From positions 1 to 43,624 of the IMG/VR virus record IMGVR_UViG_3300046411_000816: a DNA stretch of 43,624 bases, one strand, 5' to 3'. This DNA comes from a virus. The notes beneath the pieces are model-generated. The model made no database searches. It saw only the letters and a list, made by a program, of their open reading frames with translations, and was not told where the DNA came from. Positions 19,751-43,624 of this stretch are shown here, in pieces (position 1 is the stretch's first letter; every line of letters begins with the position of its first letter). Position numbers and translations under genes: made by a program.

Positions 19751-19796
19751 TTTTTTTATTTGGCCAAACAATCACACCATTGGCCAAATAAAAAAA
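19751..19796. repeat. 17-bp perfect inverted repeat upstream of cassette promoter
   Basis: The left arm 19751-19767 (T7, ATT, TGGCCAA) is matched exactly by the right arm 19780-19796, around a 12-nt loop. Because the T-run is on the outer 5' side and an A-run on the outer 3' side in both directions, it does not end in a normal U-tract terminator. It lies directly against the -35 box at 19798, so it could be an operator, an mRNA-end stabiliser or a bidirectional termination signal. Confidence 0.6.
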
Positions 19797-19797
19797 C

Positions 19798-19826
19798 TTG
19801 ACAAAAGTAACTATTGCTTGTATATT
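19798..19826 (+). promoter_or_regulatory. sigma70-type promoter of the helicase-methyltransferase cassette
   Basis: TTGACA 19798-19803, 17 bases, TATATT 19821-19826, then TAGGAG before the ATG at 19863. Near copy of the promoter at 9807. Confidence 0.8.
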
Positions 19827-19862
19827 AATACTATAAAAACTAACAAACTATAGGAGCAATTT

Positions 19863-20420
19863 ATGCTAAAACTAGTAAATTCAGTAGAAGAACCAGACAT
19901 TTCAGCGGTAACTTCATTGTTTAACAATTATCACGCCAAAAAGTCAAAACGTTTTGGCAATGTTGGTGGTGGATTATTTAGAGGAGCAGATGGATCTATC
20001 ACAGTTACTTTACCAACAGAATTATGTTGGGATTGGAGTAATTCAGCAGGTGGTAATTCAGGAGGCAAGAATCCAAGACCTGTTGGAATTAGATTACTTC
20101 CTAATAGAGTAAAAGAGTTATATGGAGATAATGATAACGCATTGGAAACAATTTTTTCTTCAATAGACAGTCTAAAAGCATTTATTATGACTTCAGATAG
20201 GCAAGGTAGAGCTAAATTAGAGAATCTTCTTGCTAAGAAGAAATTAAAGAGTGCAATAACTGAAGTTGATATTGACTTAGATATCAAAGATATTGCTTCT
20301 AAAAGTGAGGAGTCGTTAGATAATATAGGAATGAAATTGTTGGATCTTGCTATAAGAAAAGACGACAATGAACTTGCTAAATTAGTATTAAACGGAGCAT
20401 TAGAGAAGATAGCATCATGA
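19863..20420 (+). CDS. Orphan protein at the head of the RM-like cassette
   Basis: A 185-residue protein behind TAGGAGCAA. N-terminal 70 residues have a Gly/Asn-rich patch (FGNVGGGLFRGADGS and SAGGNSGGKNPRP) and a strand with TLPTELCWDW; the C-terminal half is helical and charged. No known family. It overlaps the following 1352-residue gene by four bases (ATGA), so the two products are made together. It could be a subunit, specificity factor or inhibitor of that enzyme. Confidence 0.6.
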   Translation: MLKLVNSVEEPDISAVTSLFNNYHAKKSKRFGNVGGGLFRGADGSITVTLPTELCWDWSNSAGGNSGGKNPRPVGIRLLPNRVKELYGDNDNALETIFSSIDSLKAFIMTSDRQGRAKLENLLAKKKLKSAITEVDIDLDIKDIASKSEESLDNIGMKLLDLAIRKDDNELAKLVLNGALEKIAS

Positions 20421-23400
20421 CTCTTAAAGAAAGACTTGAAAAAGAAAAAATAGTTAAGATTGAAAAAAAATTACGTAGGTTAGCTAAAGATAGTAATGTC
20501 CGTAAAAGAATTTTAACTAGGGAAAAAACAGATGTAAGTCAATTTCCAGTTGGTTCAGCTAGTTGGTTCTTAGAAGATATACGTAGATTGTTCCACCCAG
20601 AACTGAAAAGTATAGTAGACGCAGAAGCTACAACAAAAGCAACAGGACAAAAGGTGTTTGGAGTATATTTAAGAGAAGAACCTCCAACGGGTTGTAAGAA
20701 GATTGGTAAGGCTACTGTCGTAGATGGTCAAATAACCAGAGAGACTTCTGGTACTAACCAGTCATACCATCTAAGGGATATTAGATTTATACCTTGCGCC
20801 AACGAATTAGCGGCATATATGTTAGAATATATCCTACAGATTATATTTGGTAGGCATAAAAGAACACAATCCTTAAAAGAGTACCCACATATTAAAGATG
20901 CTATAGATAAAAAATTTTCAAAGAGGTTTGAGTTTTGGATAAGACAGCAAAAGAGCAGATCAAATAAATCAAACACAGGATCCGAGTGGTTCAAACCTGA
21001 TTTGACCGTAGAGTTGTTTGAAAGTGTAGTACAATCTCTGGCAAAAGATTATAAAGATGCAGGGTCAAATAAACGATTTTTTCCTAATCTTGCAAGAGAT
21101 TATCAATTAGATGCAGTAAATGCATTTGTAGATTGTGTTGTACAAGTAGGATCTTGGGAACAGGTTTTATTAGATTCGATAGATTTCTATTTGCTGATGA
21201 AACCTAGATCGGGTAAGAATCTTACCATGCTATTAGCATTGGCAAAATTACATAAAAGATATCAAACCATGGGATGCTTTGACAAATCTACAGTGATGAA
21301 TGTCTTGTTTATTTCGTTAGTACCGGCCGCTTTTGACGGCACAATGGAGGACATTGAGAAACACTGGTTTGACCAGGATGTTAAGATTGATTATGTAGAC
21401 ACAAGCAATGCAGACTGGAAAGAGCAAAGATCAAAGAAGATCAAACAAGGTGCCAACATAATTATTTTATTCTCTTCAATGCAGAGTATCCACAAAGATA
21501 TCAACAAAGAAATTGCCAAAGAATGGCGTAAAGCAGAAACACTTGGAATTCAAAGCGAAGAATTTGATCCACATAAGAAACATGATTTACTGAACTTAGA
21601 CATTGAGTTTATGGTACTAGACGAAAGTGATTTTGGATTACGTACTTTATTAGCGGAAAGTGTAATTAAAGAGTTTAAACCAAAAATTAAACTACATCTA
21701 TCTGGTAGTGATCTATATGCAATAAGAAAACTTACTAGCGAATCACCTGTACCAAACTATTATCTACGAGATGTTATTGCAGAAGACAAAGACATAGAAG
21801 CAGGCAAGGTCAAACTTCCTAAATTGAGATATTGGTTTATGGAAGTGGGACTTCTGCCGTTTGATGATATGACCGCTGACGAGATGGATGAAAAGGCAGT
21901 TTCGAGATGTCTTAAAAACTTATATTTGACTAATATTGATAGGTTGTTAGAGAAGGCTACTGATCCTGCACAAATACACAAGATAAGAAAGTATAGTAGA
22001 GACCCACACACAGGCTTTTGGGTTGACGGAATGGGTAATGAGATCAAATTAGAGAATGAACAAGAAATGAGAAAGTTTAAAAGGTTAATAGGTAACCTTG
22101 CTAATTCTGGTTTTGAACTTCTAGAACACAAACATATCTTTAACACGGTGCCAACACAGGTAGGACAGTTGGCATTTGAAAACTTCTGTAAAAAACATAG
22201 TTGGTTTGACTATGAGGTCAAGACAGGTTATGAATTTGGTAATGCTGGCAAAAGACAAAGGCAAGTGAGAGACTGGATGGGAATCAGTGAATACAACCCA
22301 ACAGGTTTGAAAAAGACATGGTTTGTGACTGTAGCCAAAATGTTGAGAGGCGCCACGGTGCCTTGGAGTTCTGTTGTTAGATGTGATGAATTTGTAGACT
22401 TTAAGATAGGGCACCAGATTGACTTAAGAGCACAGAACGAGTATGGTCCTGATGGTGTACATTGTGATATCTTTGATATGAACCCATGGAGGAGGAAAAG
22501 AAGCCATGTGGAACTTATGAAGATGAGTTCAAACAAGGGAGACAAGTTTAAGTTGTTAGAGTCTACTGCCAACAGGTTGATGCCGTGGTGTGTTGGTGCT
22601 ACAGGCATAAGGCAGTCAACATTAGAGGAGACAGAAGACGCATATAACAATTTCAGATCATTAACGGACGGCTTTGAACAGGCAAATTTGTATAACATAG
22701 ATTCTGTTATTGCAGATATGGAATTACTTAAGAATGTAGGAACTGCATCTAGAGATGATAAACAGATTGACGAAAGAGCTGGTAAAAAGAAGAAGAAAAA
22801 AATTAAAGGCAAAAATGGTAATAAGAATTCAAAACTAGCACCTGACGAAATTACTAAGGCTTTAAAGTTGATCAAAAACTTTGCCAAATACCTGCCACAA
22901 TTACAGGTTATAACTAGAAGAAATAATAAAAATAATGAAGCATATCACACAATTAACGATTTATTAGAATTTAGCAGTCGAGATATACTGAAACTATGGT
23001 TTGAGTATGTTGGCCTACCTAAAGATATTACAAAAAAAGATATATTATGCTGGTTTAATCAAGATAAATTAAATGAGAAATTAAGAATTACAGCCAACAA
23101 AATTAACAGAGGTTTAGATTTAGAAGAGTTAGGACAAGTATCAAAACCAAAGGCAGGAGATGTACCTGTGCCATATGTATTAGCAAAATTAATTGTAGAG
23201 GAAATACCAGAAGAATTTTGGAAAAGACCCAACCTTAAGATTTTTGATCCTAGTTGTGGAAAAGGAGACTTTCTTAAGGTAATTAAAGAAAAGTTAGAAA
23301 ATCTTAATTTTACAAAAAAGCAAATAAGTCAAACCTTGTTTTACGCAGATCCTGAAGAATTTAATATATTATTTACTAATGAAACTCTTGACTTAGATAA

Positions 23401-24475
23401 CGGTTTCGTATATAATATATTAAAAAAGCCAAAGTTTTTAGAAAATACAACAACGGAAGAAAAAAATAAAATTAACAAAGTATGGAAAGTAAAGAACTTA
23501 ACAGAATTAACAGAACTTAAAAGGAAAATTGAAAAAATGCAATTCGATCTCATTATTACAAATCCACCTTATCAATCTACAGACGAAAATGGTGATAGAA
23601 ACGATCAAGCAAAAAACTTATGGTCTAAGTTTACAAAGATTGCTCATGATAATGTAAAACCAGGAGGAATATTTACACTAGTAACACCTAATACATGGAT
23701 GAGTACATCAGCAGATATAGGCAAAGGAAAATCTGGAATACATTTCTATAGAGATTATTTTCAGAAATATAAAGTATTAGCATTAAACATTAACGACTGT
23801 AAAAAGTATTTTAAAGAAGGAACAAGTTTTTCTTATTTTATAGTTGAAAAAACTATAGCAGACAAGCAAGTAACAGATATTAAAACTGAAAGTGATGAAT
23901 TTAAAATAGACTTGAGAAATGTTCCTATACTGCCAAAGCAAGTTACTTATGATAACATAGATATTTTAAATAAGTTTTTCTTTAGTGAACATCCTAAAAT
24001 TGAATGGAAAGGAAATAACTTACCCGAATCTTCCCTTAAAGACATTGACTATTCTGATAAGAAATCAGCAGAATATAAATATCCAGTTTATAGCACACCT
24101 GCAAAAGGTGGAAAATATTTTTATAGAAAAGATAAAATGCAAAACTTTGAACGTCAAAAAATATTATTAAGTGAATCTGGTAATTATAAACCAGTGTATG
24201 ATGACGGGAAAATGGGATATGATTCGTTTTGTCATGTATACTTTTTAAAATCTAATGAGACATTAGACTATGTAAAAAATGTAATAGAACATCCGCTTTA
24301 TAAATTTGCTATGGATCAAACACAGTTAGTAGGGTGGTTATCATCTATGGTTCATAGTCTACCAGCATTAGATTTTACAAAGAAGTTAAAATCACAAGAT
24401 ATATATGATTCATTTGGTATTACGTTAGATCAACAGGATAAAATTGATGAATGGTTTAGATCTCAAAAAAATTAA
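20417..24475 (+). CDS. GIY-YIG-like nuclease / SF2 helicase / N6-adenine methyltransferase fusion
   Basis: A 1352-residue multidomain protein. (1) Residues about 80-145: GVYL (82), KIGKAT, and ANELAAYMLEY with Glu130, the layout of GIY-YIG/T5orf172 nucleases. (2) Residues about 225-680: SF2 ATPase with a DYQLDAV Q-like motif, Walker A PRSGKN near 263, Walker B LDESD near 402, SGSD, then KMLRGATVPW and QIDLRAQ near 667, as in type I/III restriction translocases. (3) Lys-rich linker near 785. (4) Residues about 920-1150: gamma-class methyltransferase with DPSCGKGDF (944-952) and NPPY (1049-1052). (5) C-terminal 200 residues: probable target-recognition region. This is a single-chain restriction-modification-like plan. 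The middle of the gene looks richer in G and C than its ends, hinting at a composite origin. Confidence 0.8.
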   Translation: MTLKERLEKEKIVKIEKKLRRLAKDSNVRKRILTREKTDVSQFPVGSASWFLEDIRRLFHPELKSIVDAEATTKATGQKVFGVYLREEPPTGCKKIGKATVVDGQITRETSGTNQSYHLRDIRFIPCANELAAYMLEYILQIIFGRHKRTQSLKEYPHIKDAIDKKFSKRFEFWIRQQKSRSNKSNTGSEWFKPDLTVELFESVVQSLAKDYKDAGSNKRFFPNLARDYQLDAVNAFVDCVVQVGSWEQVLLDSIDFYLLMKPRSGKNLTMLLALAKLHKRYQTMGCFDKSTVMNVLFISLVPAAFDGTMEDIEKHWFDQDVKIDYVDTSNADWKEQRSKKIKQGANIIILFSSMQSIHKDINKEIAKEWRKAETLGIQSEEFDPHKKHDLLNLDIEFMVLDESDFGLRTLLAESVIKEFKPKIKLHLSGSDLYAIRKLTSESPVPNYYLRDVIAEDKDIEAGKVKLPKLRYWFMEVGLLPFDDMTADEMDEKAVSRCLKNLYLTNIDRLLEKATDPAQIHKIRKYSRDPHTGFWVDGMGNEIKLENEQEMRKFKRLIGNLANSGFELLEHKHIFNTVPTQVGQLAFENFCKKHSWFDYEVKTGYEFGNAGKRQRQVRDWMGISEYNPTGLKKTWFVTVAKMLRGATVPWSSVVRCDEFVDFKIGHQIDLRAQNEYGPDGVHCDIFDMNPWRRKRSHVELMKMSSNKGDKFKLLESTANRLMPWCVGATGIRQSTLEETEDAYNNFRSLTDGFEQANLYNIDSVIADMELLKNVGTASRDDKQIDERAGKKKKKKIKGKNGNKNSKLAPDEITKALKLIKNFAKYLPQLQVITRRNNKNNEAYHTINDLLEFSSRDILKLWFEYVGLPKDITKKDILCWFNQDKLNEKLRITANKINRGLDLEELGQVSKPKAGDVPVPYVLAKLIVEEIPEEFWKRPNLKIFDPSCGKGDFLKVIKEKLENLNFTKKQISQTLFYADPEEFNILFTNETLDLDNGFVYNILKKPKFLENTTTEEKNKINKVWKVKNLTELTELKRKIEKMQFDLIITNPPYQSTDENGDRNDQAKNLWSKFTKIAHDNVKPGGIFTLVTPNTWMSTSADIGKGKSGIHFYRDYFQKYKVLALNINDCKKYFKEGTSFSYFIVEKTIADKQVTDIKTESDEFKIDLRNVPILPKQVTYDNIDILNKFFFSEHPKIEWKGNNLPESSLKDIDYSDKKSAEYKYPVYSTPAKGGKYFYRKDKMQNFERQKILLSESGNYKPVYDDGKMGYDSFCHVYFLKSNETLDYVKNVIEHPLYKFAMDQTQLVGWLSSMVHSLPALDFTKKLKSQDIYDSFGITLDQQDKIDEWFRSQKN

Positions 24476-24920
24476 GACTCATATTAATGATAGGCCATAT
24501 ATGAGTGGAGTTGATAGGGATAACCTAAGGGTTAAAGCTACAGGTGAAGTATTTACTCCAACAGAACTTGTAAATGAAATTTTGGACCAACATCCAAAAG
24601 AGTTGTTCACTGATCCTACAAAAACTGTTATTGATATTGCAGTTGGAGATGGACAGTTTTTAGGGCAGATATTAATTCGTAAAGTGGAAAATGGAATTGA
24701 TTTTGAAACGGCCTTGGAGTCACTTTACGGATGCGATGTTATGATGGACAATGTAGAGTTGTGTAGGGAGAGACTCTTATGCGGTTTTAATCAATACAGA
24801 CATATTGTAGAAAAGAATATAATTTGCTCTAACGCAGAAAATGAGCATTTTCGTTTTGATGGTACACCTCAAAAAAATCAATCAACTATAAAAGATTCCA
24901 CTATGTTTGAAATTTCATAA
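24447..24920 (+). CDS. Short N6-adenine methyltransferase-like protein
   Basis: About 157 residues. It contains the entry motif TGEVFTPTELVNEIL and the SAM-binding motif DIAVGDGQF, but stops before any NPPY catalytic motif. Similar short methylase-like proteins occur in T4-like marine phages, so it may be a genuine small family and not a recent truncation. Overlaps the fusion gene by 29 bases (ATG 24447; a later ATG at 24501 is possible). It might regulate or replace the SAM-binding half of its neighbour; alone it should not methylate DNA. Confidence 0.65.
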   Translation: MNGLDLKKIKTHINDRPYMSGVDRDNLRVKATGEVFTPTELVNEILDQHPKELFTDPTKTVIDIAVGDGQFLGQILIRKVENGIDFETALESLYGCDVMMDNVELCRERLLCGFNQYRHIVEKNIICSNAENEHFRFDGTPQKNQSTIKDSTMFEIS

Positions 24921-24951
24921 GTTATCTTGTAAAAAATATTAAATTAGTACA

Positions 24952-24980
24952 AAAAACCCTTGTAAATAAAGGGTTTTTTT
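24952..24980 (+). terminator. Rho-independent terminator closing the cassette
   Basis: AAAAACCCTT (24952-24961), loop GTAAATA, AAGGGTTTTT (24969-24978), followed by further T. Almost identical to the terminator at 27675. Confidence 0.85.
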
Positions 24981-25003
24981 ATGGCTTTTTTTAGGAAAAA
25001 AGG

Positions 25004-25032
25004 TTGACTTTTATACCAAGATGTCTTATTAT
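25004..25032 (+). promoter_or_regulatory. sigma70-type promoter of the ligase operon
   Basis: TTGACT 25004-25009, 17 bases, TATTAT 25027-25032; AAAGGAG follows before ATG 25061. Spacer identical to the promoter at 27726. Confidence 0.8.
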
Positions 25033-25060
25033 ATATGTATAGTTAGAAAAAGGAGAGTAT

Positions 25061-25288
25061 ATGAAAACAGTAGAACAAATGGAAATGGAAGAATTAAGAG
25101 GCGAATTACAAGAGCTTAAATTAGGCTTGGGTGGAATTGGCACAAAAGACGTTATGAGAATGCACTCAATTGAAGATGAAATTGATTGGAGACAAGAAAG
25201 CGGATATGCAGATTATACTGCACAAGAAATACAAGATGAATTAATTGAAAAGGGTGAATTAGACACGCCTTATATGGAGGCACAATAA
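25061..25288 (+). CDS. Small acidic protein, unknown function
   Basis: A 75-residue acidic helical protein (MEMEELRGELQELKLGLG onward). First gene after the ligase-operon promoter, with a strong AAAGGAG site. TAATG overlap with the next gene. No family recognised. Confidence 0.6.
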   Translation: MKTVEQMEMEELRGELQELKLGLGGIGTKDVMRMHSIEDEIDWRQESGYADYTAQEIQDELIEKGELDTPYMEAQ

Positions 25289-27539: not shown

Positions 27540-27687
27540 TGAAACAATTCAGCTATATAAAAAAAGAGTAGCTAATTGTATAAAAGCGGCAAATATGTCA
27601 AAAAAAGACACTTGGGCTTACAATTTCTGGATGCAAACTGCATCAAAAATTACAAAAAAACTTGAAAGGATGAGAAAACCCTTGTAA
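27526..27687 (+). CDS. Small basic protein, 53 residues
   Basis: A short Lys-rich helical gene with AAGGAG eight bases before its ATG; ends LERMRKPL. Its TAA lies in the loop of the terminator hairpin 27675-27701, so the coding end and the terminator are fused. Unknown function; charge would suit nucleic-acid binding. Confidence 0.5.
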   Translation: MEITNETIQLYKKRVANCIKAANMSKKDTWAYNFWMQTASKITKKLERMRKPL

Positions 27688-27701
27688 TTAAAGGGTTTTT
27701 T
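27675..27701 (+). terminator. Rho-independent terminator
   Basis: AAAACCCTT (27675-27683), loop GTAATTA, AAGGGTTTT (27691-27699) plus T-run. Near copy of the terminator at 24952. Confidence 0.85.
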
Positions 27702-27725
27702 ATTTAACTTTTTTTGATTAAAAGG

Positions 27726-27754
27726 TTGACATTTATACCAAGATGTCTTATTAT
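27726..27754 (+). promoter_or_regulatory. sigma70-type promoter of the HD/ClpP region
   Basis: TTGACA 27726-27731, 17 bases, TATTAT 27749-27754; AAAGGAGAA precedes ATG 27787. Confidence 0.85.
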
Positions 27755-27786
27755 ATAAGTATAGTTAGAAACAAAGGAGAATATAA

Positions 27787-28122
27787 ATGCAAAAAGAAAT
27801 AGACACTTTAATCCAAGCAATTAAAACAGACTACATTAATTGGACTACTTCAAATGGGACAAAAGAAATGAGTAGTTATAGTCAAGGTGTAGTTGATTCA
27901 ATGGAAGATAACATTCAAGTTAAAGAAGGTAAGAAATACATCAAGATTATTAGAGAAAATAGTGTTTGGGGTTTTATATCTAAAGTAGACTTCAAACATT
28001 TTAGAAAAGGTGATATTCTTAAAGCGGCAGGTTGGAATGCTCCTGCACTTAATGCTCCAAGAGGTAATATTTTAGATGGTGGATATACTGTTAGATGGAC
28101 AGGCCCACTTTACTTAAACTAG
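27787..28122 (+). CDS. Conserved phage protein, unknown function
   Basis: A 111-residue protein with a distinctive C-terminal half: KYIKIIRENSVWGFI, then DFKHFRKGDILKAAGWNAPA and NILDGGYTVRWTGPLYL. It reads like a small all-beta or alpha+beta domain found widely in T4-like marine phages. First gene of the operon behind the duplicated promoter. No enzymatic motif. Confidence 0.6.
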   Translation: MQKEIDTLIQAIKTDYINWTTSNGTKEMSSYSQGVVDSMEDNIQVKEGKKYIKIIRENSVWGFISKVDFKHFRKGDILKAAGWNAPALNAPRGNILDGGYTVRWTGPLYLN

Positions 28123-28127
28123 AGGAT

Positions 28128-28643
28128 ATGCAATTGATTGATAGAGCACTTAAATTTTCTACTGCGGCACACGCCGCAGTAAACCAGAAACGGAAGTACA
28201 CAGGTGATGATTATATTGTTCACCCTATTGCCGTTTCTGAAATTGTTGCGGCATTTGGCGGTACAAAAGAAATGATTGCCGCGGCCCTTTTACATGATAC
28301 AGTTGAAGATACTAATGTAACCAGAGAGCAAATTGCTGAAGAATTTGGTTGGAAAGTTTTTAAGTTAGTTGTAGAATTAACTGATGTAACTAAACCAGAA
28401 GATGGCAACAGAGCAATACGTAAGGCTATTGAAGCTAAACGTTTGGGTATGGCTAGTAAAGAAGCACAAATGATTAAACTAGCAGATCTTATTGACAACA
28501 CAAAATCAATAGTTGAGCATGATCCAAAATTTGCTGAAGTTTATATAAAAGAAAAAATAAATCTATTAGAAGCTATGGATAAAGTACATGGCACAGATCT
28601 ATATATGAAAGCTAACCTTCAACTTATGGAAATTCATGATTGA
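28128..28643 (+). CDS. HD-domain hydrolase of the SpoT/Mesh1 type, candidate (p)ppGpp hydrolase
   Basis: A 171-residue stand-alone HD domain. Residues match the alarmone-hydrolase set: Arg22 in KRKYTG, His32 in IVHP, His56-Asp57 in LLHDTVEDT, Glu60-Asp61, and Asp120 with Asn124 in KLADLIDN. These correspond in spacing to the Mn-binding and catalytic residues of Mesh1 and the SpoT hydrolase half. No synthetase, TGS or ACT domain is attached, so the product should only degrade. Likely effect: remove host (p)ppGpp to keep translation and transcription going under nutrient stress. Start ATG 28128 preferred; ATG 28095 would overlap the previous gene by 28 bases. Confidence 0.75.
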   Translation: MQLIDRALKFSTAAHAAVNQKRKYTGDDYIVHPIAVSEIVAAFGGTKEMIAAALLHDTVEDTNVTREQIAEEFGWKVFKLVVELTDVTKPEDGNRAIRKAIEAKRLGMASKEAQMIKLADLIDNTKSIVEHDPKFAEVYIKEKINLLEAMDKVHGTDLYMKANLQLMEIHD

Positions 28644-29794: not shown

Positions 29795-30382
29795 ATGCTT
29801 ATACCAACAGTAATAGAAACAACAGGTCGCGGTGAACGTGCATACGACATTTACAGTCGTTTGCTTAAAGATCGAATTGTAATGCTTAATGGCGAAGTTA
29901 ACGATCATTCAGCTCAATTAGTAGTAGCACAAATGCTATTTTGTGAGTCACAAAACAACGCAGAAGATATTAATTTTTATATCAATAGTCCTGGAGGTGC
30001 AGTAACATCAGGTCTTGCAATTTATGATACGATGCAATTTATTAAATCTCCAGTAAGTACAATCGTAATAGGGCAGGCTTGTAGTATGGGTAGTTTCCTT
30101 GCAATGGCAGGTGAGCCAGGTAAACGTAATATATTACCTAATGCTAGAACTATGATACACCAACCAAGTGGTGGTGCAGGTGGGCAGGCTACTGACATGG
30201 AAATACAAGTAAAAGAGATTATTAAAATAAAAGAAAATTTAACAAAAATCTATGAAAAGCATAATACTGCTAATAAGTCGTATGATGAACTATCAAAAGC
30301 TATGGAGAGAGACAATTATCTAAGTGCAGACGAGGCAGTTGCCTTTGGTTTAGCAGATAAAGTAGTTTCTCGCAAAACATAG
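29795..30382 (+). CDS. clpP: ClpP, ATP-dependent protease proteolytic subunit
   Basis: A 195-residue serine peptidase that forms the two-ring chamber fed by ClpX. Triad: Ser97 in GQACSMGS, His122 in MIHQPSGG and the Asp of [11 protein letters not shown]. The N-terminal [19 protein letters not shown] loop that docks the unfoldase is intact, and there is no long propeptide. GQATDMEI and the handle helix are conserved. Behind AGGAGA. Together with phage ClpX, ClpS and tmRNA it makes a self-contained tag-and-degrade set. Confidence 0.96.
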
Positions 30383-32613: not shown

Positions 32614-33062
32614 AATTAGACAATAGTTCTTACACAGTCACACCTCCTGATTTAATGTTGACTGAACACGGTGTAAGTGTACTAATAACCAGTACCAATC
32701 AAAAGTTAATAACAAAAGTAAAAGATATATTTGAAAAATATATTGCAACAAGCATTGTATTCTATATACAAAATAAACTAACTAACTCAAATACCCTACC
32801 ATGGCTATGGAACGTATCAAAAACTTGTGAATTTATGATTATTGATCTTGATACCTGTGCAGAAGCAGATATAATTGCAGGATTAATGAAACCAAGAGAC
32901 GATGAAAAAGTTGTACTGTTTTACAGTGATAAGTACACTAGAAGAGATACGATAAAACTAATAAACGCAACAGGCGAAAATTTAGTAGTCACTAAGATGG
33001 AAGATGTACATAACTATATAAGGTTACAAATGAACCCAGAGTATTTTGATGAGACCAAATGA
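32610..33062 (+). CDS. Conserved hypothetical upstream of clpX
   Basis: A 150-residue protein overlapping the preceding stop (ATGA) and the clpX start by 14 bases. Alternating strands and helices: VSVLITSTNQKLITKVKDI, FMIIDLDTCAEADIIAGLM and VVLFYSDKYTRRDTIKLI, an alpha/beta plan like a receiver or Rossmann-like fold without its catalytic residues. Tight coupling to clpX makes a substrate adaptor or regulator of ClpXP an attractive but unproven idea. Confidence 0.55.
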   Translation: MKLDNSSYTVTPPDLMLTEHGVSVLITSTNQKLITKVKDIFEKYIATSIVFYIQNKLTNSNTLPWLWNVSKTCEFMIIDLDTCAEADIIAGLMKPRDDEKVVLFYSDKYTRRDTIKLINATGENLVVTKMEDVHNYIRLQMNPEYFDETK

Positions 33063-34260
33063 TATAATCTGCAATTTTTGCGGAAAAGGTAGAAACCAAG
33101 TAAAAAAATTATTAGCAGGTGAAAATGCTATGCACATTTGTTCTGATTGTGTAGAGTTATGTCACGGCATATTACAGAACAATGAAATTAAAATAGAAAA
33201 TACAATAGAAAAGAAATTTAATCTTCCTACACCTAGAGAAATACACAAGCATTTAGATGATTATGTTATAAGTCAAGATAAAGCAAAGAAAACTTTAAGT
33301 GTAGCAGTTTATAATCATTATAGAAGAATTACATCAGATACAAAAACAAAATTACAAAAAGGAAATGTGTTTATTGCAGGTCCTACAGGAACTGGTAAAA
33401 CATTAATGGCACAAACACTAGCCAATCATTTAGATGTTCCATTTGTTGTAACAGATGCTACAGTTATTACCGAAAGCGGTTATGCAGGAGAAGATGCAGA
33501 AGTATTAATACATAAATTATTTCAAGCGGCAGATTACAACGTAGAAAGAGCAGAACGTGGTATAATTTATGTTGACGAAATAGATAAAAAAGCAAAACGT
33601 AATGACTTTGTAAGTTTAAGTAGAGATGTAAGTGGTGAAGGAGTTCAGCAAAGTTTATTAAAGCTAATAGAAGGTAGTAAAGTAACAGTACCTAATAAGC
33701 CTCAAAGTAATCCAGAAAAAGTAATTGTTGATACAACCAATATATTGTTTATTGTTGGTGGTGCATTTGTTGGTTTAGAAGAAGTAGTTGCTAATAGACT
33801 TGGTAAATCAAAAATAGGCTTTAATGGTGAAGAAGGTCATAAGATAGAAAATTGGACAGAGTACTTACAAACCAAAGACTTGGTAAAGTATGGATTAATA
33901 CCAGAATTTATTGGTAGGTTTGCAAGTACCAACGTATTATCCCATCTAAGCAAAGAAGACTTGGTAAAGATATTAACAGAACCAAAAGATGCTATTGTAG
34001 AGCAAATTAAAGAATTATTTTTACTTGACAAAATACAAATAGAGTTTAAAATGGAAGCATTGGAAGAGGTAGCAGACATAGCAATAAAAGAAGAAATAGG
34101 GGCCAGAGGGTTGCGTAAGATACTTGATGGTGCATTACTTGAATTACAATATAGGTTACCAGAAATGTCCAGTGAAGGTATAAACAAAATTATTATTACA
34201 AAAGATGTTATTTCTAAAAACGCAGAACCCCATTACATTAAGAGCACCAATGCAAAATAG
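33049..34260 (+). CDS. clpX: ClpX, AAA+ unfoldase
   Basis: A 403-residue ClpX with N-terminal zinc-binding domain (ICNFCGKG, then ICSDCVELC), Walker A GPTGTGKT (111-118), Walker B IIYVDEIDK, pore-2 RDVSGEGVQQ, arginine finger EFIGRF and sensor-2 GARGLR. The ClpP-docking tripeptide IGF is present (256-258). Two differences from bacterial ClpX: pore-1 reads GYAG instead of GYVG (144-147), and the RKH loop is shortened and lacks Arg-Lys-His (PNKPQSNPE near 215-223). These loops recognise ssrA-type tags, so substrate choice is probably altered. ATG 33049 within the previous gene. Confidence 0.96.
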   Translation: MRPNDIICNFCGKGRNQVKKLLAGENAMHICSDCVELCHGILQNNEIKIENTIEKKFNLPTPREIHKHLDDYVISQDKAKKTLSVAVYNHYRRITSDTKTKLQKGNVFIAGPTGTGKTLMAQTLANHLDVPFVVTDATVITESGYAGEDAEVLIHKLFQAADYNVERAERGIIYVDEIDKKAKRNDFVSLSRDVSGEGVQQSLLKLIEGSKVTVPNKPQSNPEKVIVDTTNILFIVGGAFVGLEEVVANRLGKSKIGFNGEEGHKIENWTEYLQTKDLVKYGLIPEFIGRFASTNVLSHLSKEDLVKILTEPKDAIVEQIKELFLLDKIQIEFKMEALEEVADIAIKEEIGARGLRKILDGALLELQYRLPEMSSEGINKIIITKDVISKNAEPHYIKSTNAK

Positions 34261-34771
34261 GAATTTTAGAAGAAGAGATACAAAACCTTTGTATACTGCA
34301 AATGAACGTATTAAATTTGCAGAAATACGAGTTTCCTTTCCAGATGGCGATAGTCAGGTCATGTCTACAAAGGAAGCCTTAGCAAAAGCAAAAGAAATGG
34401 AGTTAGATTTAGTACTAATAGCTGAAAAAGCTCAGCCACCAGTATGCAGAATTATCGCACTCAATAAACATTTGTATGAGCTAAAGCAAAAACAAAAGCT
34501 GGCTAAAAAGAAACAACGCGAAAGCATTGTAGAAATTAAGGAAATACGAATGGGTGTAAACATTGATATCCATGATTTGGAAACAAAAGCTAATATGGCT
34601 CGTAAATTCTTAGATAAAAATAACAAACTAACAGTTATGGTGACAATGAAAGGCAGAGAACGTGGCAGACCTGAGTCCGCTAAAGAAGTGCTAAATAAGT
34701 TTGCAGAAAAACTTAATATCAAATTTGAACATATTAGTGTTCAAAGTCACAGAGTAACTGGAAAAACATAG
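34250..34771 (+). CDS. infC: Translation initiation factor IF-3
   Basis: A 173-residue IF-3, starting at ATG 34250 inside the end of clpX (11-base overlap). N-domain: ANERIKFAEIRV, MSTKEALAKAKEMELDLVLI and QPPVCRII; basic linker LKQKQKLAKKKQRES; C-domain: VEIKEIRMGVNIDIHDLETK, ARKFLDKNNKLTV and MKGRERGRPE. The C-terminal tail (FEHISVQSHRVTGKT) differs from the usual MIMVLAPKK ending. IF-3 binds the 30S subunit, checks initiator tRNA and blocks premature 50S joining. A phage copy next to bS21 suggests steering of host ribosomes to phage messages. Confidence 0.93.
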   Translation: MQNRNFRRRDTKPLYTANERIKFAEIRVSFPDGDSQVMSTKEALAKAKEMELDLVLIAEKAQPPVCRIIALNKHLYELKQKQKLAKKKQRESIVEIKEIRMGVNIDIHDLETKANMARKFLDKNNKLTVMVTMKGRERGRPESAKEVLNKFAEKLNIKFEHISVQSHRVTGKT

Positions 34772-34778
34772 AAAACAT

Positions 34779-35060
34779 ATGGCATATAATAAAAACTATA
34801 CAAAAAATTGGCAGTCAAATGATAGACGGCCTACTAGACGTGACGATCAACCCAAAGTAAAAGGTTTAACTGTTGAAGTTAGAAACGGAAACCTTGAACA
34901 AGCTATGAGAAGACTTAAAAAGATGATAGCAAAAGAAGGTATAATGCAAGAAGTTCGTGACCGTAGACACTTTGTAAGTAACACGGAAAAAAGAATCAAA
35001 GCAGAAGCGGCTGGTAAAGCTAGACATCGTAGACGAATTGCTATGGACAAACCAAAATAG
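34779..35060 (+). CDS. rpsU: Ribosomal protein bS21
   Basis: A 93-residue bS21 with core LTVEVRNGNLEQAMRRLKKM and a basic C-terminal helix (EKRIKAEAAGKARHRRRIAM). It has an extra N-terminal extension of about 27 residues rich in Asn, Arg and Asp. bS21 sits near the anti-Shine-Dalgarno end of 16S rRNA and exchanges easily, so a phage version can be swapped into ribosomes. bS21 genes are known from several pelagiphages and other phages. Seven bases after IF-3. Confidence 0.95.
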   Translation: MAYNKNYTKNWQSNDRRPTRRDDQPKVKGLTVEVRNGNLEQAMRRLKKMIAKEGIMQEVRDRRHFVSNTEKRIKAEAAGKARHRRRIAMDKPK

Positions 35061-35063
35061 ATC

Positions 35064-35071
35064 TATAAATA
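35064..35071 (+). promoter_or_regulatory. T4-like late promoter box TATAAATA in a small palindrome
   Basis: TATAAATA just after the bS21 stop and 22 bases before clpS. It lies within the inverted repeat CTATAAA/TTTATAG (35063-35080). Confidence 0.45.
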
Positions 35072-35092: not shown

Positions 35093-35395
35093 ATGACAAG
35101 AACTCAGACAAGTGATGTAGCAGAGATTACAAAGTTAAAATCTCCACCTAAGTATTGTGTAATACTACTCAATGACGATTCTACACCTATGGAATTTGTT
35201 ATTAATATATGCCAAACTATTTTTAATAAAACAAAAACAAAAGCAGAAGCTATTACGTTAGAAGTACATAAAAAAGGTAAAGGTGTAGCAGGCACCTATA
35301 GCTACGAAGTAGCAGAACAAAAATGCGTAGAAACTGTAACAGAAGCCAGAAGAAATGGTTTTCCTTTAGATGTTACATTAGAAAAAACAGAGTAA
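35093..35395 (+). CDS. clpS: ClpS, N-degron adaptor
   Basis: A 100-residue ClpS. The binding pocket is intact: YCVILLNDDSTPMEFV (Asn-Asp-Asp and Met) and LEVHKKG (His). C-terminal AEQKCVETVTEARRNGFPL is conserved. ClpS normally delivers N-end-rule substrates to ClpA, but only ClpX is encoded here. It must therefore work with host ClpA, redirect ClpA towards chosen proteins, or pair with phage ClpX. Good ribosome site AGGAAGG. Possibly under the late box at 35064. Confidence 0.94.
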   Translation: MTRTQTSDVAEITKLKSPPKYCVILLNDDSTPMEFVINICQTIFNKTKTKAEAITLEVHKKGKGVAGTYSYEVAEQKCVETVTEARRNGFPLDVTLEKTE

Positions 35396-36263: not shown

Positions 36264-36692
36264 ATGAAAATAGGATTTACTTGTTCAACATTTGATTTAC
36301 TACACGCCGGGCATATTGCTATGTTGCGAGAAGCTAAGGCACAATGTGATTATTTAATAGTAGGACTACAAACAGATCCTACAATAAGTAGACCAACAAA
36401 GAATTCACCTATACAAACAGTAGTAGAAAGATATACACAATTAAAAGCAGTAGGGTATGTAGATGAAATAATTCCATATACTACTGAACAAGATTTAGAA
36501 GATATACTTTCTATGTATAATATTAATGTACGAGTATTAGGTGAAGAATATAAAGAAAAAGATTTTACAGGAAAAGATATCTGTAAACAGAGAGATATTT
36601 CTCTATACTTTAATAAACGAGACCATAGATTCAGTTCAACAGAATTGAGGCAACGGGTTAACACAAAGGAAATGAAAAATGAGAGTGCGTGA
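36264..36692 (+). CDS. Cytidylyltransferase-like nucleotidyltransferase
   Basis: A 142-residue HIGH-superfamily nucleotidyltransferase: TFDLLHAGHIAML (HxGH) and FSSTELRQR (counterpart of the RTEGISTT signature). Size and VGLQTDPT match glycerol-3-phosphate or ethanolamine-phosphate cytidylyltransferases, which activate an alcohol phosphate with CTP for cell-surface polymers. The substrate cannot be set from sequence. Overlaps guaC by 14 bases. Confidence 0.85.
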   Translation: MKIGFTCSTFDLLHAGHIAMLREAKAQCDYLIVGLQTDPTISRPTKNSPIQTVVERYTQLKAVGYVDEIIPYTTEQDLEDILSMYNINVRVLGEEYKEKDFTGKDICKQRDISLYFNKRDHRFSSTELRQRVNTKEMKNESA

Positions 36693-37800
36693 AGAAGTTA
36701 AACTAAATTTTGAAGATGTATTAATGGAACCAAAACGTTCTACACTATCAAGTAGACGTGATGTACAAATGACTAGAAAGTTTACATTCCGAAACTCTGG
36801 TAAAGTGATTGACTTCTGCCCTATATTTGCTAGTAATATGGATGGTGTAGGTACGTTTGAAGTTGCTAAAGTATTACAAGAACACAAAATGATGACTGTA
36901 ATTACAAAAAGTACAACACTAGATGAATGGAAAGCGGCCGCAGGTACAGGTTTACGTTTACAGAGTGTAAGTGTATGTACAGGAACAAATCGTATGTACG
37001 ATCCAGACGCAGAAGATTATTCCAATATGCAGGCAGTATTAAAATCATTTCCTGATGTAAAAATGATTACTGTTGATGTTGCCAATGCTTATCACGAGAA
37101 TTTTGTAGACTTTATTAAAATGGTAAGAGAAGAATATCCAGATAAAGTTATTGTAGCAGGCAACGTAGTAACTCCAGAAATGGTAGAAGAACTAATTATA
37201 AATGGTGCTGACGTAGTTAAAATTGGTATTGGGCCTGGATCAGTATGTACTACAAGAACAATGACAGGTATTGGAGTACCACAGTTTTCAGCTATATTAG
37301 AATGTGCAGATGCGGCAAATGGCGTTGATGGACATATTATGGCAGATGGTGGTTGTGTACATCCAGGAGATATTGCTAAAGCACTTGGCGGTGGAGCTCA
37401 TATGGTAATGATTGGTGGAATGTTAGCTGGTCATAAAGAAGGTGGTGGTAATATTATTACTAAACATACTGCTACTGGTGGAGCTCATAAGCTAGATAAT
37501 GGAACATATGTTCCACACTTTGAAGAACAACAGTTTGTTGAGTTTTATGGTATGAGCTCAGATCGTGCTAGAGAGAAACATGGCAAACGAAAAGATGGCT
37601 ATAGAGGGAATGAAGGTAGACATATTGTTATGCCTTATAGAGGACCTATTAACGATACAGTAGAAAACATACTAGGTGGAGTTAGATCTGCGGCTACTTA
37701 CATTGGAGCAAGGCGTTTAAAAGATATGCCAAAATGTGCAACATTTGTAAGAACGCATAATGTCATCAACAGAACTTACGAACAATTCACTGTAAAATAA
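36679..37800 (+). CDS. guaC: GMP reductase
   Basis: A 373-residue TIM-barrel enzyme of the IMPDH/GMPR family with no CBS insert. The diagnostic loop GPGSVCTTRTMTGIGVPQ with catalytic Cys, and FYGMSSDRAREKHG with YRGNEG, match GuaC better than GuaB. It converts GMP to IMP using NADPH, turning host guanine nucleotides (from degraded RNA or DNA) into IMP and then adenine nucleotides, which suits an AT-rich phage genome. Downstream of AAAGGAA. Overlaps the preceding gene by 14 bases. Confidence 0.88.
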   Translation: MRVREEVKLNFEDVLMEPKRSTLSSRRDVQMTRKFTFRNSGKVIDFCPIFASNMDGVGTFEVAKVLQEHKMMTVITKSTTLDEWKAAAGTGLRLQSVSVCTGTNRMYDPDAEDYSNMQAVLKSFPDVKMITVDVANAYHENFVDFIKMVREEYPDKVIVAGNVVTPEMVEELIINGADVVKIGIGPGSVCTTRTMTGIGVPQFSAILECADAANGVDGHIMADGGCVHPGDIAKALGGGAHMVMIGGMLAGHKEGGGNIITKHTATGGAHKLDNGTYVPHFEEQQFVEFYGMSSDRAREKHGKRKDGYRGNEGRHIVMPYRGPINDTVENILGGVRSAATYIGARRLKDMPKCATFVRTHNVINRTYEQFTVK

Positions 37801-40685: not shown

Positions 40686-41072
40686 TTATCTTTTAACTTT
40701 AGTTTTAACTTTTAATGAGGACATAGGCTCATTTGTTTTAGGGTTTATACTGCATTCTTTTACACATACTTTAGGAGGATTATCGCTATTCCAGCCTGGA
40801 TGCCATATATCATTATTGTAAAAATCAGACTCTAATATTTCGTCAAAGCTATATTTTTTTAAATTATTAAAATCTTGATCTTTGTTTACCTGTTTTACAA
40901 ATCTTGGATCTTCTGTTAGTATTTTCACACTAGTACTTTCTGGTTCTCGTTGACTACGATCCCATTGGTTAGCAAAAAAACAGCAAGGCCATACTCTACC
41001 TTCAGGAGTTACTTCCCAACTTCTTATATTCTTTTTTTCGTTCCATACCATACATTTTATATTACATCTCAT
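40686..41072 (-). CDS. SPASM-like C-terminal partner of the radical SAM protein
   Basis: A 128-residue protein whose ATG overlaps the stop of the upstream radical SAM gene (ATGA). Cys-rich: MRCNIKCMVW, RVWPCCFF and PKVCVKECS, with TPEGRVWPCC typical of SPASM auxiliary Fe-S domains. In most relatives this would be the C-terminal half of one chain. Here the two parts are in different frames, meaning either a coupled two-gene system or a frameshifted gene. Confidence 0.65.
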   Translation of the reverse strand: MRCNIKCMVWNEKKNIRSWEVTPEGRVWPCCFFANQWDRSQREPESTSVKILTEDPRFVKQVNKDQDFNNLKKYSFDEILESDFYNNDIWHPGWNSDNPPKVCVKECSINPKTNEPMSSLKVKTKVKR

Positions 41073-41692
41073 ATTGTTTCCAAAAGTTCCTGTGCTAAAT
41101 TTGTATCTGATGGACTTATAAGACCCCATTTTCTTCTATTCCATTTAAATTTAATTTCGCATGGCATATCTTTTGCTATTTGATTTGCTAAAGGAATTTC
41201 AGTCCAGTTCCATGAAAATATAAGATATTCCCATCTGCCTTTTCCACCATTTTGAAAATAACTTTTCATATTATCCATAGCACGATTCCAATCAACACCT
41301 TCTCTATATTTCCAATTGGTGTCATGATTTGCTCCATCTACACAAAATTGTATTGAAACTTTTTTTCCATACGTTTCTGCTATATGTTTGTACCAATTAG
41401 GTTTACGTAAAGCACCGTTGGTATAAATTTCTATTCTTCTACAATGCGATATTCCTACTTTTATAAATTCGTCTATATCTGGATGCATACAAGGATCTCC
41501 ATACTCTCCACAAAATTCTATTACATCTAATTCCTTGTTTTTGTTTTCAACAACATTTTTAAATAAATTAATGTCCATATGCTCTAGTTTTAATCCATCA
41601 ATTGGTTTTCCTGTATCTATATTAGTACGAGCACAAGATCTGCACCTTGCTTGGCAATAAGTTGTAAGAGCAAAATCAATAGAATGTTTCAT
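41069..41692 (-). CDS. Radical SAM protein
   Basis: A 207-residue radical SAM domain. The 4Fe-4S cluster motif is Cys13-x3-Cys17-x2-Cys20 (CQARCRSC); EFCGEYGDP is the SAM-binding GGE-like strand; IEIYTNGA and SIQFCVDG follow. It ends where the TIM-barrel would pass into an auxiliary domain, which is encoded by the next overlapping gene. Substrate unknown; peptide or tRNA modification are family possibilities. It would need a reduced flavodoxin or ferredoxin, which the phage Fpr could supply indirectly. Confidence 0.85.
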   Translation of the reverse strand: MKHSIDFALTTYCQARCRSCARTNIDTGKPIDGLKLEHMDINLFKNVVENKNKELDVIEFCGEYGDPCMHPDIDEFIKVGISHCRRIEIYTNGALRKPNWYKHIAETYGKKVSIQFCVDGANHDTNWKYREGVDWNRAMDNMKSYFQNGGKGRWEYLIFSWNWTEIPLANQIAKDMPCEIKFKWNRRKWGLISPSDTNLAQELLETI

Positions 41693-41719
41693 AACACTAA
41701 TATTTAGCTTAATTTCAAC

Positions 41720-42344: not shown

Positions 42345-42845
42345 TTGAAAAAAATAAAAGATACATACGATAATTTTTTTAAATGGGTTAAAGGTACTGA
42401 GTTAGTAGAACTAACTGACATAGATGTTTCCGAAGATCCTGTAAGACCTGAATTAACACTTGAATGGAGATTAGATGCCTCAAGAAAAATTTATGGTTTA
42501 AAATACGAGGATGATGTAGAAGCAATAGTTTGTGTAGCATACACTAATGAAGTACCTATTACAGTTAGAGAAATGGACTATATGAGTCAGGTAGCCTGCC
42601 AGGATGGCCAACTTGGTTCTATTGCAATAGCCTATACAGTATGGTCAAGAAAAAGAGGAGCAGGTAAAGAAATCATTAATAAGCTATATGAGTTTTTACG
42701 TAGTGAAAGATTAGCAACAAAAAGGTTGGTAACATTATCTCCACTTACACCAATGGCAACACATTTCCATATTAAGAATGGTGCCAAACAAATCAGCATA
42801 AACGATACAACACAAAACTTTGAGTATAAATTGGTTGACAATTAA
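42345..42845 (+). CDS. GNAT acetyltransferase-like protein
   Basis: A 166-residue GNAT fold with TTG start (GAGAATAAA upstream). The acetyl-CoA-binding region is AIAYTVWSRKRGAGKEIINK (R-x-x-G-x-G-type loop), followed by RLVTLSPLTPMATHFHIKNG, a pattern recurrent in T4-like marine phages. Target unknown; could acetylate a host protein or tRNA. Ends 11 bases before the late box of the tmRNA gene. Confidence 0.75.
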   Translation: MKKIKDTYDNFFKWVKGTELVELTDIDVSEDPVRPELTLEWRLDASRKIYGLKYEDDVEAIVCVAYTNEVPITVREMDYMSQVACQDGQLGSIAIAYTVWSRKRGAGKEIINKLYEFLRSERLATKRLVTLSPLTPMATHFHIKNGAKQISINDTTQNFEYKLVDN

Positions 42846-42856
42846 ACTTTTACGTG

Positions 42857-42864
42857 TATAAATA
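42857..42864 (+). promoter_or_regulatory. T4-like late promoter box TATAAATA for tmRNA
   Basis: Exact TATAAATA; a start six to seven bases downstream falls at 42870-42872, where the acceptor-piece sequence begins. Suggests tmRNA is expressed late. Confidence 0.5.
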
Positions 42865-42870
42865 TACATT

Positions 42871-43190
42871 GTGGACGTTGAAGCGACTTGAAGATATTAT
42901 GGACCTCGGGGCAGTACCGAGCACCTCCACCATAAAAGCATTGGAAAGAAAATGATAGTATTTGATTTACTTGGCTATGTGATACTGGCAAATTTTATTG
43001 CTAGTGCTTTTATGATGGGGGTGAACTAGGATCGACAGGTATTGTATGGAAGTGGAGTTTACCGGGTGATTACGTTATTGATCAAACTTTATAAACGCAG
43101 AAGATAATTTTGCTATAGCGGCCTAATTTAGGCACGTAGGGGTGGGAACTACCTGGCAACAGAAGTGCCACTGAATTCTTTAGAACTCAG
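42871..43190 (+). ncRNA. ssrA: Circularly permuted two-piece tmRNA
   Basis: Transfer-messenger RNA that rescues stalled ribosomes and adds a degradation tag. Order is permuted: the acceptor piece comes first (about 42871-42932: T-stem CTCGG/CCGAG at 42905-42921, then CACCTCC, A, CCA at 42930-42932). An intervening segment of 84 bases follows, then the coding piece from 43017. GGGGGTG (43017-43023) pairs with CACCTCC (42922-42928) over all seven positions, with one G-U; GGATCGACAGG follows as in other tmRNAs. ATTGTAT (43031-43037) pairs with ATATTAT (42894-42900), one mismatch, as P2. Tag frame: GCA 43097 to TAA 43126, A-E-D-N-F-A-I-A-A; TA at -5/-4 fits a resume codon. The T-loop (GGCAGTA) is unusual. 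The 3' limit is approximate. Confidence 0.88.
42952..43029 (+). CDS. Possible 25-residue hydrophobic peptide inside the tmRNA precursor
   Basis: ATG 42952 behind GGAAAG opens MIVFDLLGYVILANFIASAF, then MMGVN and stop at 43029. It fills the intervening segment between the two tmRNA pieces and runs into the first 13 bases of the coding piece. A single membrane helix is predicted. Could be real or a by-chance frame; translation would compete with tmRNA processing. Confidence 0.25.
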   Translation: MIVFDLLGYVILANFIASAFMMGVN

Positions 43191-43198
43191 TACTACAA

Positions 43199-43219
43199 AA
43201 AGATAAATTTCTTATCTTT
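43199..43219 (+). other. Hairpin after tmRNA
   Basis: AAAGATAA (43199-43206) pairs with TTATCTTT (43212-43219), loop ATTTC. Follows the tmRNA coding piece and precedes the next ribosome site; it may guide 3' processing or weakly stop transcription. No U-tract. Confidence 0.35.
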
Positions 43220-43236
43220 ATATCAAGGAAATATAT

Positions 43237-43624
43237 ATGAAATATATAATGACAGCGGCACTTGTCGCTTTTACATTTTCTACTGCTAACGCAGAAGATT
43301 ATAACAACACATCAGTAACTATGGCCGCAGAAGGTCCTGCTTATGGTGTGGAACTATCAACTAATGATACTACAAGAAAAGTAAGTGTCTACAATACGAA
43401 TGGCGCATTAGATCTAGGAGTACAATTAGTTGACAACGGTACCAATACAGATTTTAATGTATCTGTTGGTAAAACCATCGATAGTAATATCGGAACCGCA
43501 GAATCACCATTAGCTACAGTTTATGCATCTGCAGAAGCTGAGTATAATTGGGGCGATAGTTTTACTAAAAACGAAATGCATTTTACTCCTAAAATTGGAG
43601 CTAAAAAAGCTATTGGCAACCTAA
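43237..43624 (+). CDS. Secreted/outer-membrane beta-rich protein, partial (3' end outside window)
   Basis: Starts MKYIMTAALVAFTFSTANA with signal-peptide cleavage before EDYNN, behind AAGGAAAT. The 110 mature residues seen alternate polar and hydrophobic (VSVYNTNGALDLGVQLVDNG; TVYASAEAEYNWGDSF), as in outer-membrane beta barrels or porin-like proteins. Runs off the window end, so length and C-terminal signature are unknown. A phage-made envelope protein could change receptors or permeability late in infection. Confidence 0.65.
   Translation, partial: MKYIMTAALVAFTFSTANAEDYNNTSVTMAAEGPAYGVELSTNDTTRKVSVYNTNGALDLGVQLVDNGTNTDFNVSVGKTIDSNIGTAESPLATVYASAEAEYNWGDSFTKNEMHFTPKIGAKKAIGNL

Follow-up and report, generated by a model that had tools for sequence, protein, structure and literature searches.

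The 43,624-base DNA stretch analysed here (the window), which is the whole of one IMG/VR record, carries a circularly permuted, two-piece tmRNA gene at positions 42835–43190. A tmRNA releases stalled ribosomes and marks the incomplete chain for degradation. What looks new is the setting of this gene: the tmRNA of a phage lies near phage clp genes whose ClpX has changed in the loops that read tags. We consider it probable that the gene is a working permuted phage ssrA which is transcribed both early and late, is served by SmpB and alanyl-tRNA synthetase (AlaRS) of the host, and delivers its tagged chains to host ClpXP or to other host proteases.

Anatomy and conservation of the tmRNA gene

The window is for the most part collinear with G002, a contig of 221,643 bases, to which it is 82–91% identical in DNA over a G002 span of 126.5–163 kb. 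Two segments of the window, 19,758–24,952 and 40,695–41,700, have no long DNA match in G002; inside the first lies an ORF of 1352 amino acids (20417–24475) with an Eco57I-type N6 methylase region and an N-terminal half without a Pfam match. G002 encodes portal, tail sheath, terminase and DNA polymerase. Among the matches listed, the named phages closest to its terminase are those of the Pseudomonas PA5oct/Paride group (54.5%), followed by Phosso and Atu_ph07. Its major capsid protein is 67.5% identical to the counterpart of Pseudomonas phage Paride, and its gp55-type late sigma factor is 44.7% identical to that of the same phage (E 4.7e-68). Judged by these protein matches, the window represents part of the genome of a T4-like jumbo phage, a relative of Paride and PA5oct.

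The earlier note on this DNA had proposed a permuted two-piece tmRNA of the alphaproteobacterial type in a phage, with a covariance search against the corresponding Rfam model as the check. In Rfam cmscan, this model, RF01849 (alpha_tmRNA), matched positions 42816–43172 of the plus strand with 111.2 bits (E 1.2e-29; cut-off 50), and RF04321 (tmRNA_permuted) matched 42871–43126 of the same strand with 98.3 bits (E 4.6e-18; cut-off 47). ARAGORN independently called a permuted tmRNA (tmRNA*) at 42840–43217 with the tag AEDNFAIAA. With the gene standing on a phage contig, the proposal was borne out.

All parts of the gene lie on the plus strand. The acceptor (CCA-bearing) piece is placed at 42870–42932, with its 5′ end set by promoter spacing, and comprises the T stem-loop (42905–42921), the acceptor 3′ strand CACCTCC (42922–42928), the discriminator A (42929) and an encoded CCA (42930–42932). 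An intervening segment of 84 nt (42933–43016), presumably removed by tRNA-processing enzymes, separates the CCA from the acceptor 5′ strand GGGGGTG (43017–43023). The latter begins the coding piece (43017–43190, the 3′ end being approximate), which holds a D-like segment with GGATCGACAGG at 43029–43039 and the tag reading frame GCA...TAA at 43097–43126, with TA at −5/−4 and the stop TAA at 43124–43126, all as the note had described; the frame was read both by ARAGORN and from the sequence. The acceptor piece stands 5′ of the coding piece, as required for a permuted tmRNA, and the seven-base acceptor helix that had been drawn between the upstream CCA piece and the downstream coding piece (43017–43023 with 42922–42928) forms with 7/7 pairs, G3-U70 included. 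G3-U70 is the alanine identity pair, the determinant for AlaRS.

The tag frame of the window has a hydrophobic AA tail and a stop codon, which bears on the idea that the RNA is a decoy. The tmRNA of mycobacteriophage DS6A has no tag, and a phage tmRNA that lacks the coding region is on record as inhibiting the endogenous one in E. coli (PMC11915505). An RNA of this kind would poison trans-translation in the host, but the tag frame, the stop codon and the AA end are all intact in the window and its relatives, and a decoy is improbable here.

The P2 helix, which had also been said to fit, fared less well: cofolds of the two pieces give helices near its place, but Rfam marks several of the outer pairs as non-standard, and RNAalifold, given 19 joined sequences, recovers the acceptor and T helices, one short doubtful helix and no convincing P2. 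The 5′ leader hairpin of RF01849 is absent in the window, where promoter sequence stands instead. The ‘5-prime hairpin’ of the Rfam alignment falls on a promoter palindrome, GTATAAATATAC; it was judged spurious by comparison with cellular tmRNA genes, and is probably not an RNA element at this locus. Membership in the permuted tmRNAs stands, because the RF01849 cut-off was passed without the leader hairpin and RF04321, a model that omits the protruding 5′ and 3′ regions, excludes that region.

The relatives are 59 viral loci retrieved with the window ClpX. Fifty of these 59 clpX records, the nine shortest contigs being left out, were searched for tmRNA, SmpB, ClpS and ClpP. A permuted tmRNA was found above cut-off in 30 of the 50, in register in G002; the other 20 clpX-bearing records gave none above cut-off, and several of those end less than 9 kb from clpX. 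G031, a contig of 192 kb, has a ClpX of the window type and no tmRNA above cut-off, with a weak partial match that overlaps tRNA-Ala genes. Therefore, the pairing of tmRNA and ClpX is not obligatory. The signals in G031, G032 and G036 (22.7 bits, below cut-off) were not counted as tmRNAs.

Acceptor and T arms were parsed in 28 of the 31 tmRNAs of the window and its relatives, the parsing having missed L196, L202 and L204, and gave 12 distinct combinations. All 7 + 5 pairs form in each of the 12, with two-sided changes at acceptor pairs 5 and 6 and at T pairs 1–3, and acceptor pair 3 is the G-U pair (G3-U70) in 12/12. At the level of sequence, compensatory changes together with a fixed G3-U70 are the pattern expected from selection on a working tRNA-like domain. 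They also bear on the suspicion, raised by a single IMG/VR fragment with the tmRNA near the contig end, that the gene is a relic or host DNA misassembled into a phage contig. Given the compensatory change and the recurrence of the gene in related viral contigs, in register in G002, this explanation is extremely unlikely.

A direct DNA match of the window tmRNA was not found among named phages. In the relative L191 (1400–1960), the intervening segment of the tmRNA contains an incomplete repeat of the beginning of the coding piece and, after it, the letters of the CCA end, in a duplication-like arrangement. Right after the tmRNA of the window comes an ORF (43237–43624) with a signal-peptide-like start, as seen by eye; it is cut by the window end and has no Pfam or PHROGs match.

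The promoter of the tmRNA gene

The gene had been described in the earlier note as lying behind a T4-type late-promoter box. The box, TATAAATA, does lie at 42857–42864 of the plus strand and is at the same time a −10-like element, but the late-only reading overlooked TTGACA at 42835–42840, which stands 16 nt before it on the same strand, is conserved in the relatives and is predicted to serve the tmRNA gene as a sigma-70 −35 element. The octamer TATAAATA occurs six times in the window against 10.35 copies expected, and a significant late-box count in the window was rejected as not above chance. The octamer is part of a wider box, NATAAATA. By a simple longest-ORF caller, 42 of the 78 sites of this wider box in G002 lie at most 60 nt from an ORF start, the stretches concerned amounting to 3.6% of the bases; among 21 arrangements of the letters of the heptamer, the next share is 12/80. 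Sites before the portal and terminase genes are included. A T4-type late promoter system is likely in this phage group, because a gp55 homologue accompanies the enrichment of NATAAATA, both having been tested in the relative G002 and not in the window. With queries from HTVC008M, gp45 (clamp) and gp33 gave no match in G002 at E 0.01.

T4-type late promoters have no −35 element. The tmRNA genes depart from this pattern, for TTGACA accompanies NATAAATA in 20/20 distinct upstreams (from 31/31 tmRNAs of the window and its relatives), whereas TTGAC within 26 nt was found at just 4 of the 42 ORF-upstream NATAAATA sites in G002. The distance from TTGACA to the box is 16–19 nt in 18 of the 20 upstreams. 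In the remaining two, TTGACA stands 17 nt before TATAAT, and the box is found at 20 and 22 nt; the −10 and the late box are shifted apart there, and therefore both elements seem to be separately kept. The view that the late box is merely a sigma-70 −10 was rejected, since NATAAATA is enriched ahead of genes and TTGAC is mostly missing there.

These data also allow expression in the late phase only, in which the RNA would rescue ribosomes on degraded mRNA as infection ends, to be weighed. The strong enrichment of NATAAATA before genes of G002 such as portal and terminase, and the presence of a gp55 homologue, agree with it. However, the −35 spacing of TTGACA in every tmRNA upstream, so rare at the other NATAAATA sites, and the two upstreams with a displaced box do not, and the tmRNA of phage Melnitz was assigned an early promoter by its authors (PMC9004378). 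Expression confined to the late phase is thus distinctly unlikely. Because TTGACA at −35 spacing joins the late box, the tmRNA promoter is predicted to be a composite one that would allow both early and late transcription.

Two dispersed cassettes of the window (24951–25065 and 27641–27790) combine a hairpin that resembles a terminator and has a T run with, after it, GGTTGAC and TATTAT spaced as in a sigma-70 promoter. Further partial copies occur in G002; the cassettes appear to be duplicated promoters, and no Rfam family matched them above its cut-off. The TTGACA promoter of the tmRNA resembles these repeated cassettes, and, because the latter carry GGTTGAC/TATTAT at sigma-70 spacing, a −35 of the cassette type may be the early signal of the phage.

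Neighbouring genes and the ClpX loops

Five genes for protein turnover and translation lie within 5.6 kb of the plus strand, in the order ClpP (29795–30382; Pfam PF00574, E 1.9e-76, with the catalytic Ser/His/Asp stretches conserved in the alignment), ClpX (33046–34260), translation initiation factor IF-3 (34205–34771; PF05198 and PF00707), ribosomal protein bS21 (34779–35060; PF01165) and the ClpS adaptor (35093–35395; PF02617). Three other ORFs separate ClpP from ClpX, and a copy of TATAAATA (35064–35071) stands directly before the ClpS gene. Phosso and Atu_ph07 also have clpX beside infC. In 30/30 records with both genes, the tmRNA is on the strand of clpX and 7.1–15.5 kb away from it, downstream in 23 records and upstream in 7. 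ClpS was found in 48 and ClpP in 41 of the 50 records. No SmpB was found in the 50 records, including four contigs of 184–222 kb, none of the records being listed as at least 90% complete, so that smpB could sit in an unsequenced part; the control detected SmpB in 10 of 14 well-known genomes. Ten named phage records yielded SmpB once (Lak-B2) and the ClpX zinc finger seven times. A ClpA partner for ClpS gave no Pfam match in four long ORFs of G002.

Several other genes were observed along the way. G031, G034 and G024 have a second, weaker ClpP-like match elsewhere, which is perhaps a head maturation protease. The window further encodes a subtilase-family protease (8239–9753), a homologue of IMP dehydrogenase / GMP reductase (36679–37800) and an HD_4-domain protein (28095–28643). 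HD_4-type domains occur in (p)ppGpp hydrolases, and the last protein is possibly a phage alarmone hydrolase.

The window ClpX retains the zinc-finger cysteines, the Walker A and B motifs, sensor 2 and the IGF loop for ClpP docking. In E. coli ClpX, six residues are critical for reading the ssrA tag, namely Y153, V154, T199, V202, R228 and H230 (PMC7652416). The window ClpX does not have this full set. Relative to E. coli, V154 is replaced by alanine and T199 by serine, and the RKH loop is shortened with loss of R228 and H230, while Y153 and V202 are kept; the loops read GYAG and SLSRDV, with no RKH. The three loops are remodelled jointly in 53 of the 60 phage ClpX proteins (the 59 loci and the window, with L176, which is without the pore-1 stretch, counted as remodelled on two loops), and in the remaining seven each of the three loops is canonical. 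Near-identical sequences are frequent among the 60; the 51 first read comprise 35 distinct ones, of which 32 are remodelled and 3 canonical. Cellular ClpX loci, in a set picked by short peptides in common with the phage query and not randomly, were canonical in 80/80. A close cellular donor of the phage ClpX was not seen among these 80 loci kept of 104, the best match having 50% identity.

As for the effect of such changes, the mutation R228A lowers the ssrA specificity of ClpX and raises its N-degron specificity, and human ClpX, which has leucines at two such positions, leaves ssrA substrates undegraded; in E. coli ClpX, the loss caused by T199S by itself is only about fourfold (PMC7652416). 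The remodelled loops, known here from sequence, are no proof of lost tag reading: T199S is mild, V202 is unchanged, and the activity could be restored by an adaptor. Among named phages, Paride ClpX is without the RKH letters, and in Phosso and Atu_ph07 the H is replaced by N; GYVG is present in all three, and the ClpX of Bacillus phage G is canonical. The loss of RKH in Paride and the N for H in Phosso and Atu_ph07 may reflect a recurrent phage strategy.

The fate of tagged chains and the known phage tmRNAs

The phage tags that were read end in [LIM]AA and most of them begin with AN, like cellular tags. ARAGORN made no tmRNA call for 7 of the 30 tmRNA loci (L198, L203 and L205–L209), and the tags of L198, L203, L206 and L207 were read by eye. 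Cellular tags, read by ARAGORN from 45 loci (with no call for L360 and an implausible tag for L348), mostly end in [LIM]AA too. The suggestion in the note that the phage might choose its own tag is therefore weak, the pattern of ends and starts being the same as the cellular one. The AA ends are alike in phages with a canonical and with a remodelled ClpX, and co-evolution of tag and ClpX has no support.

Permuted tmRNAs in phages are already known, and the belief that none had been characterised fails because they were published in 2022 (PMC9004378) and one is found in HTVC008M, as well as in Phosso. The published work describes the isolated phage Melnitz with a two-piece tmRNA, reports 53 two-piece structures predicted by ARAGORN among 133 unique phage tmRNA structures, and views the Melnitz tmRNA as early-acting and possibly tagging host proteins (PMC9004378). 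This Methylophilales phage resembles the window phage in having a two-piece permuted tmRNA of alphaproteobacterial lineage behind what its authors regard as an early promoter; since Melnitz shows otherwise, the alphaproteobacterial type of a tmRNA is no proof of an alphaproteobacterial host. Unlike the window phage, a jumbo relative of Paride and PA5oct that encodes ClpP, ClpX, ClpS and IF-3, Melnitz is a 141-kb member of the Kyanoviridae with no ClpX zinc-finger match, and a glutamine riboswitch is reported with its tmRNA (PMC9004378).

The permuted tmRNA was found in two of nine named phage records searched, and in both deposited records the gene is unannotated. Pelagibacter phage HTVC008M (KC465899) carries it at 145161–145370 (90.6 bits to RF04321; tag ANFNEYALAA) and has a late sigma factor and S21 annotated in the record, but gives no ClpX zinc-finger match. 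Sinorhizobium phage Phosso (PV764938) carries it at 349596–350198 (113.3 bits) and, like the window phage, is a jumbo phage with clpX adjoining infC; its tmRNA, however, is about 31 kb from clpX, and its ClpX retains GYVG, with GGRKN replacing GGRKH. For AP-J-162, a Sinorhizobium jumbo phage, one tmRNA is tabulated and clpX adjoins IF-3, whereas in the available part of the paper ClpX is connected with DNA replication and the tmRNA and clpX are not linked (PMC11242549). For Bacillus phage G, too, a tmRNA was found (67.6 bits to RF00023), together with neighbouring ClpP-like and ClpX-like genes, but it is the one-piece model that matched and not the permuted one, and its ClpX has the canonical GYVG and GGRKH. 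The cellular alphaproteobacterial ssrA (RF01849) shares with the phage genes the order of the pieces, the acceptor and T arms and a similar tag pattern. In contrast, in the cellular genes that were read the acceptor piece is preceded by a 5′ leader hairpin and a CTATG...AAACG stretch, and the genes of the phage clade have no such leader hairpin stretch and have the TTGACA promoter.

Other phage reports touch on single parts of the system. Huge phages are listed with tmRNA, SmpB, IF-3 and S21 (PMC7162821), and a marine megaphage has a tmRNA (PMC9723777). Phage Clp proteins are discussed in PMC6102473 and PMC7824862, in the text of which the word ‘tmRNA’ is absent, and an SspB adaptor is described in phage pf16, a phage without ssrA (PMC5587285). 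In the open-access literature searched, no paper was found that links a phage tmRNA with a phage ClpX.

Does the phage ClpX read the phage tags? A self-contained axis is conceivable, in which the phage tmRNA tags chains and the phage ClpXP reads and shreds them, for instance to recycle the amino acids of host proteins. The constant distance range and strand of tmRNA and clpX, the frequency of ClpP and ClpS among the records, and the conservation of the ClpP-docking loop and the catalytic residues all favour it, and the Melnitz tmRNA has been suggested to tag host proteins for degradation (PMC9004378). On the other hand, the ssrA-reading loops are remodelled in most of the phage ClpX proteins, tag ends are the same whichever kind of ClpX the phage has, and a permuted tmRNA occurs without any ClpX zinc-finger match in HTVC008M and likewise, with the tmRNA described in PMC9004378, in Melnitz. 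In view of the ClpX loops above all, we regard this explanation as unlikely. Because the tags stay AA-ended while most phage ClpX proteins have lost tag-reading residues, the comparison suggests that host ClpXP, and not the phage ClpX, reads the phage tags.

In the working phage ssrA that we favour, host RNA polymerase would start early in infection from TTGACA-N16-TATAAA, and the T4-type late polymerase would later use the overlapping TATAAATA box, with the transcript starting at, or adjoining, the 5′ end of the acceptor piece. The tRNA-processing enzymes would then excise the 84-nt spacer, leaving an acceptor RNA that ends in CCA and a separate coding RNA, and the two would join via the acceptor stem, the pairing of which is seen in the sequence. 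Host alanyl-tRNA synthetase would charge the tmRNA through G3-U70, and host SmpB would carry it to stalled ribosomes, as may be expected with no SmpB in the clpX-bearing phage records searched. The unfinished chain would receive the tag AEDNFAIAA and most likely pass to a host protease, ClpXP or another, and the phage ClpX(P) would handle other substrates. More tentatively, and at somewhat less than even chances, the pathway may be split in the jumbo clade, so that its AA tags feed the host protease and the phage ClpXP is kept for phage-chosen substrates, possibly delivered as N-degrons or by an adaptor.

With the tmRNA of the window, a published class gains a well-supported member from another phage group. 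In members of the clade it is accompanied by phage ClpP, ClpX and ClpS, to which the window adds IF-3 and bS21, with no SmpB found; the altered ClpX next to the tmRNA is the part that merits the attention of specialists. This setting makes it testable why phages carry a ribosome-rescue RNA. If the split reading is true, the phage ClpXP would be spared a flood of tagged chains.
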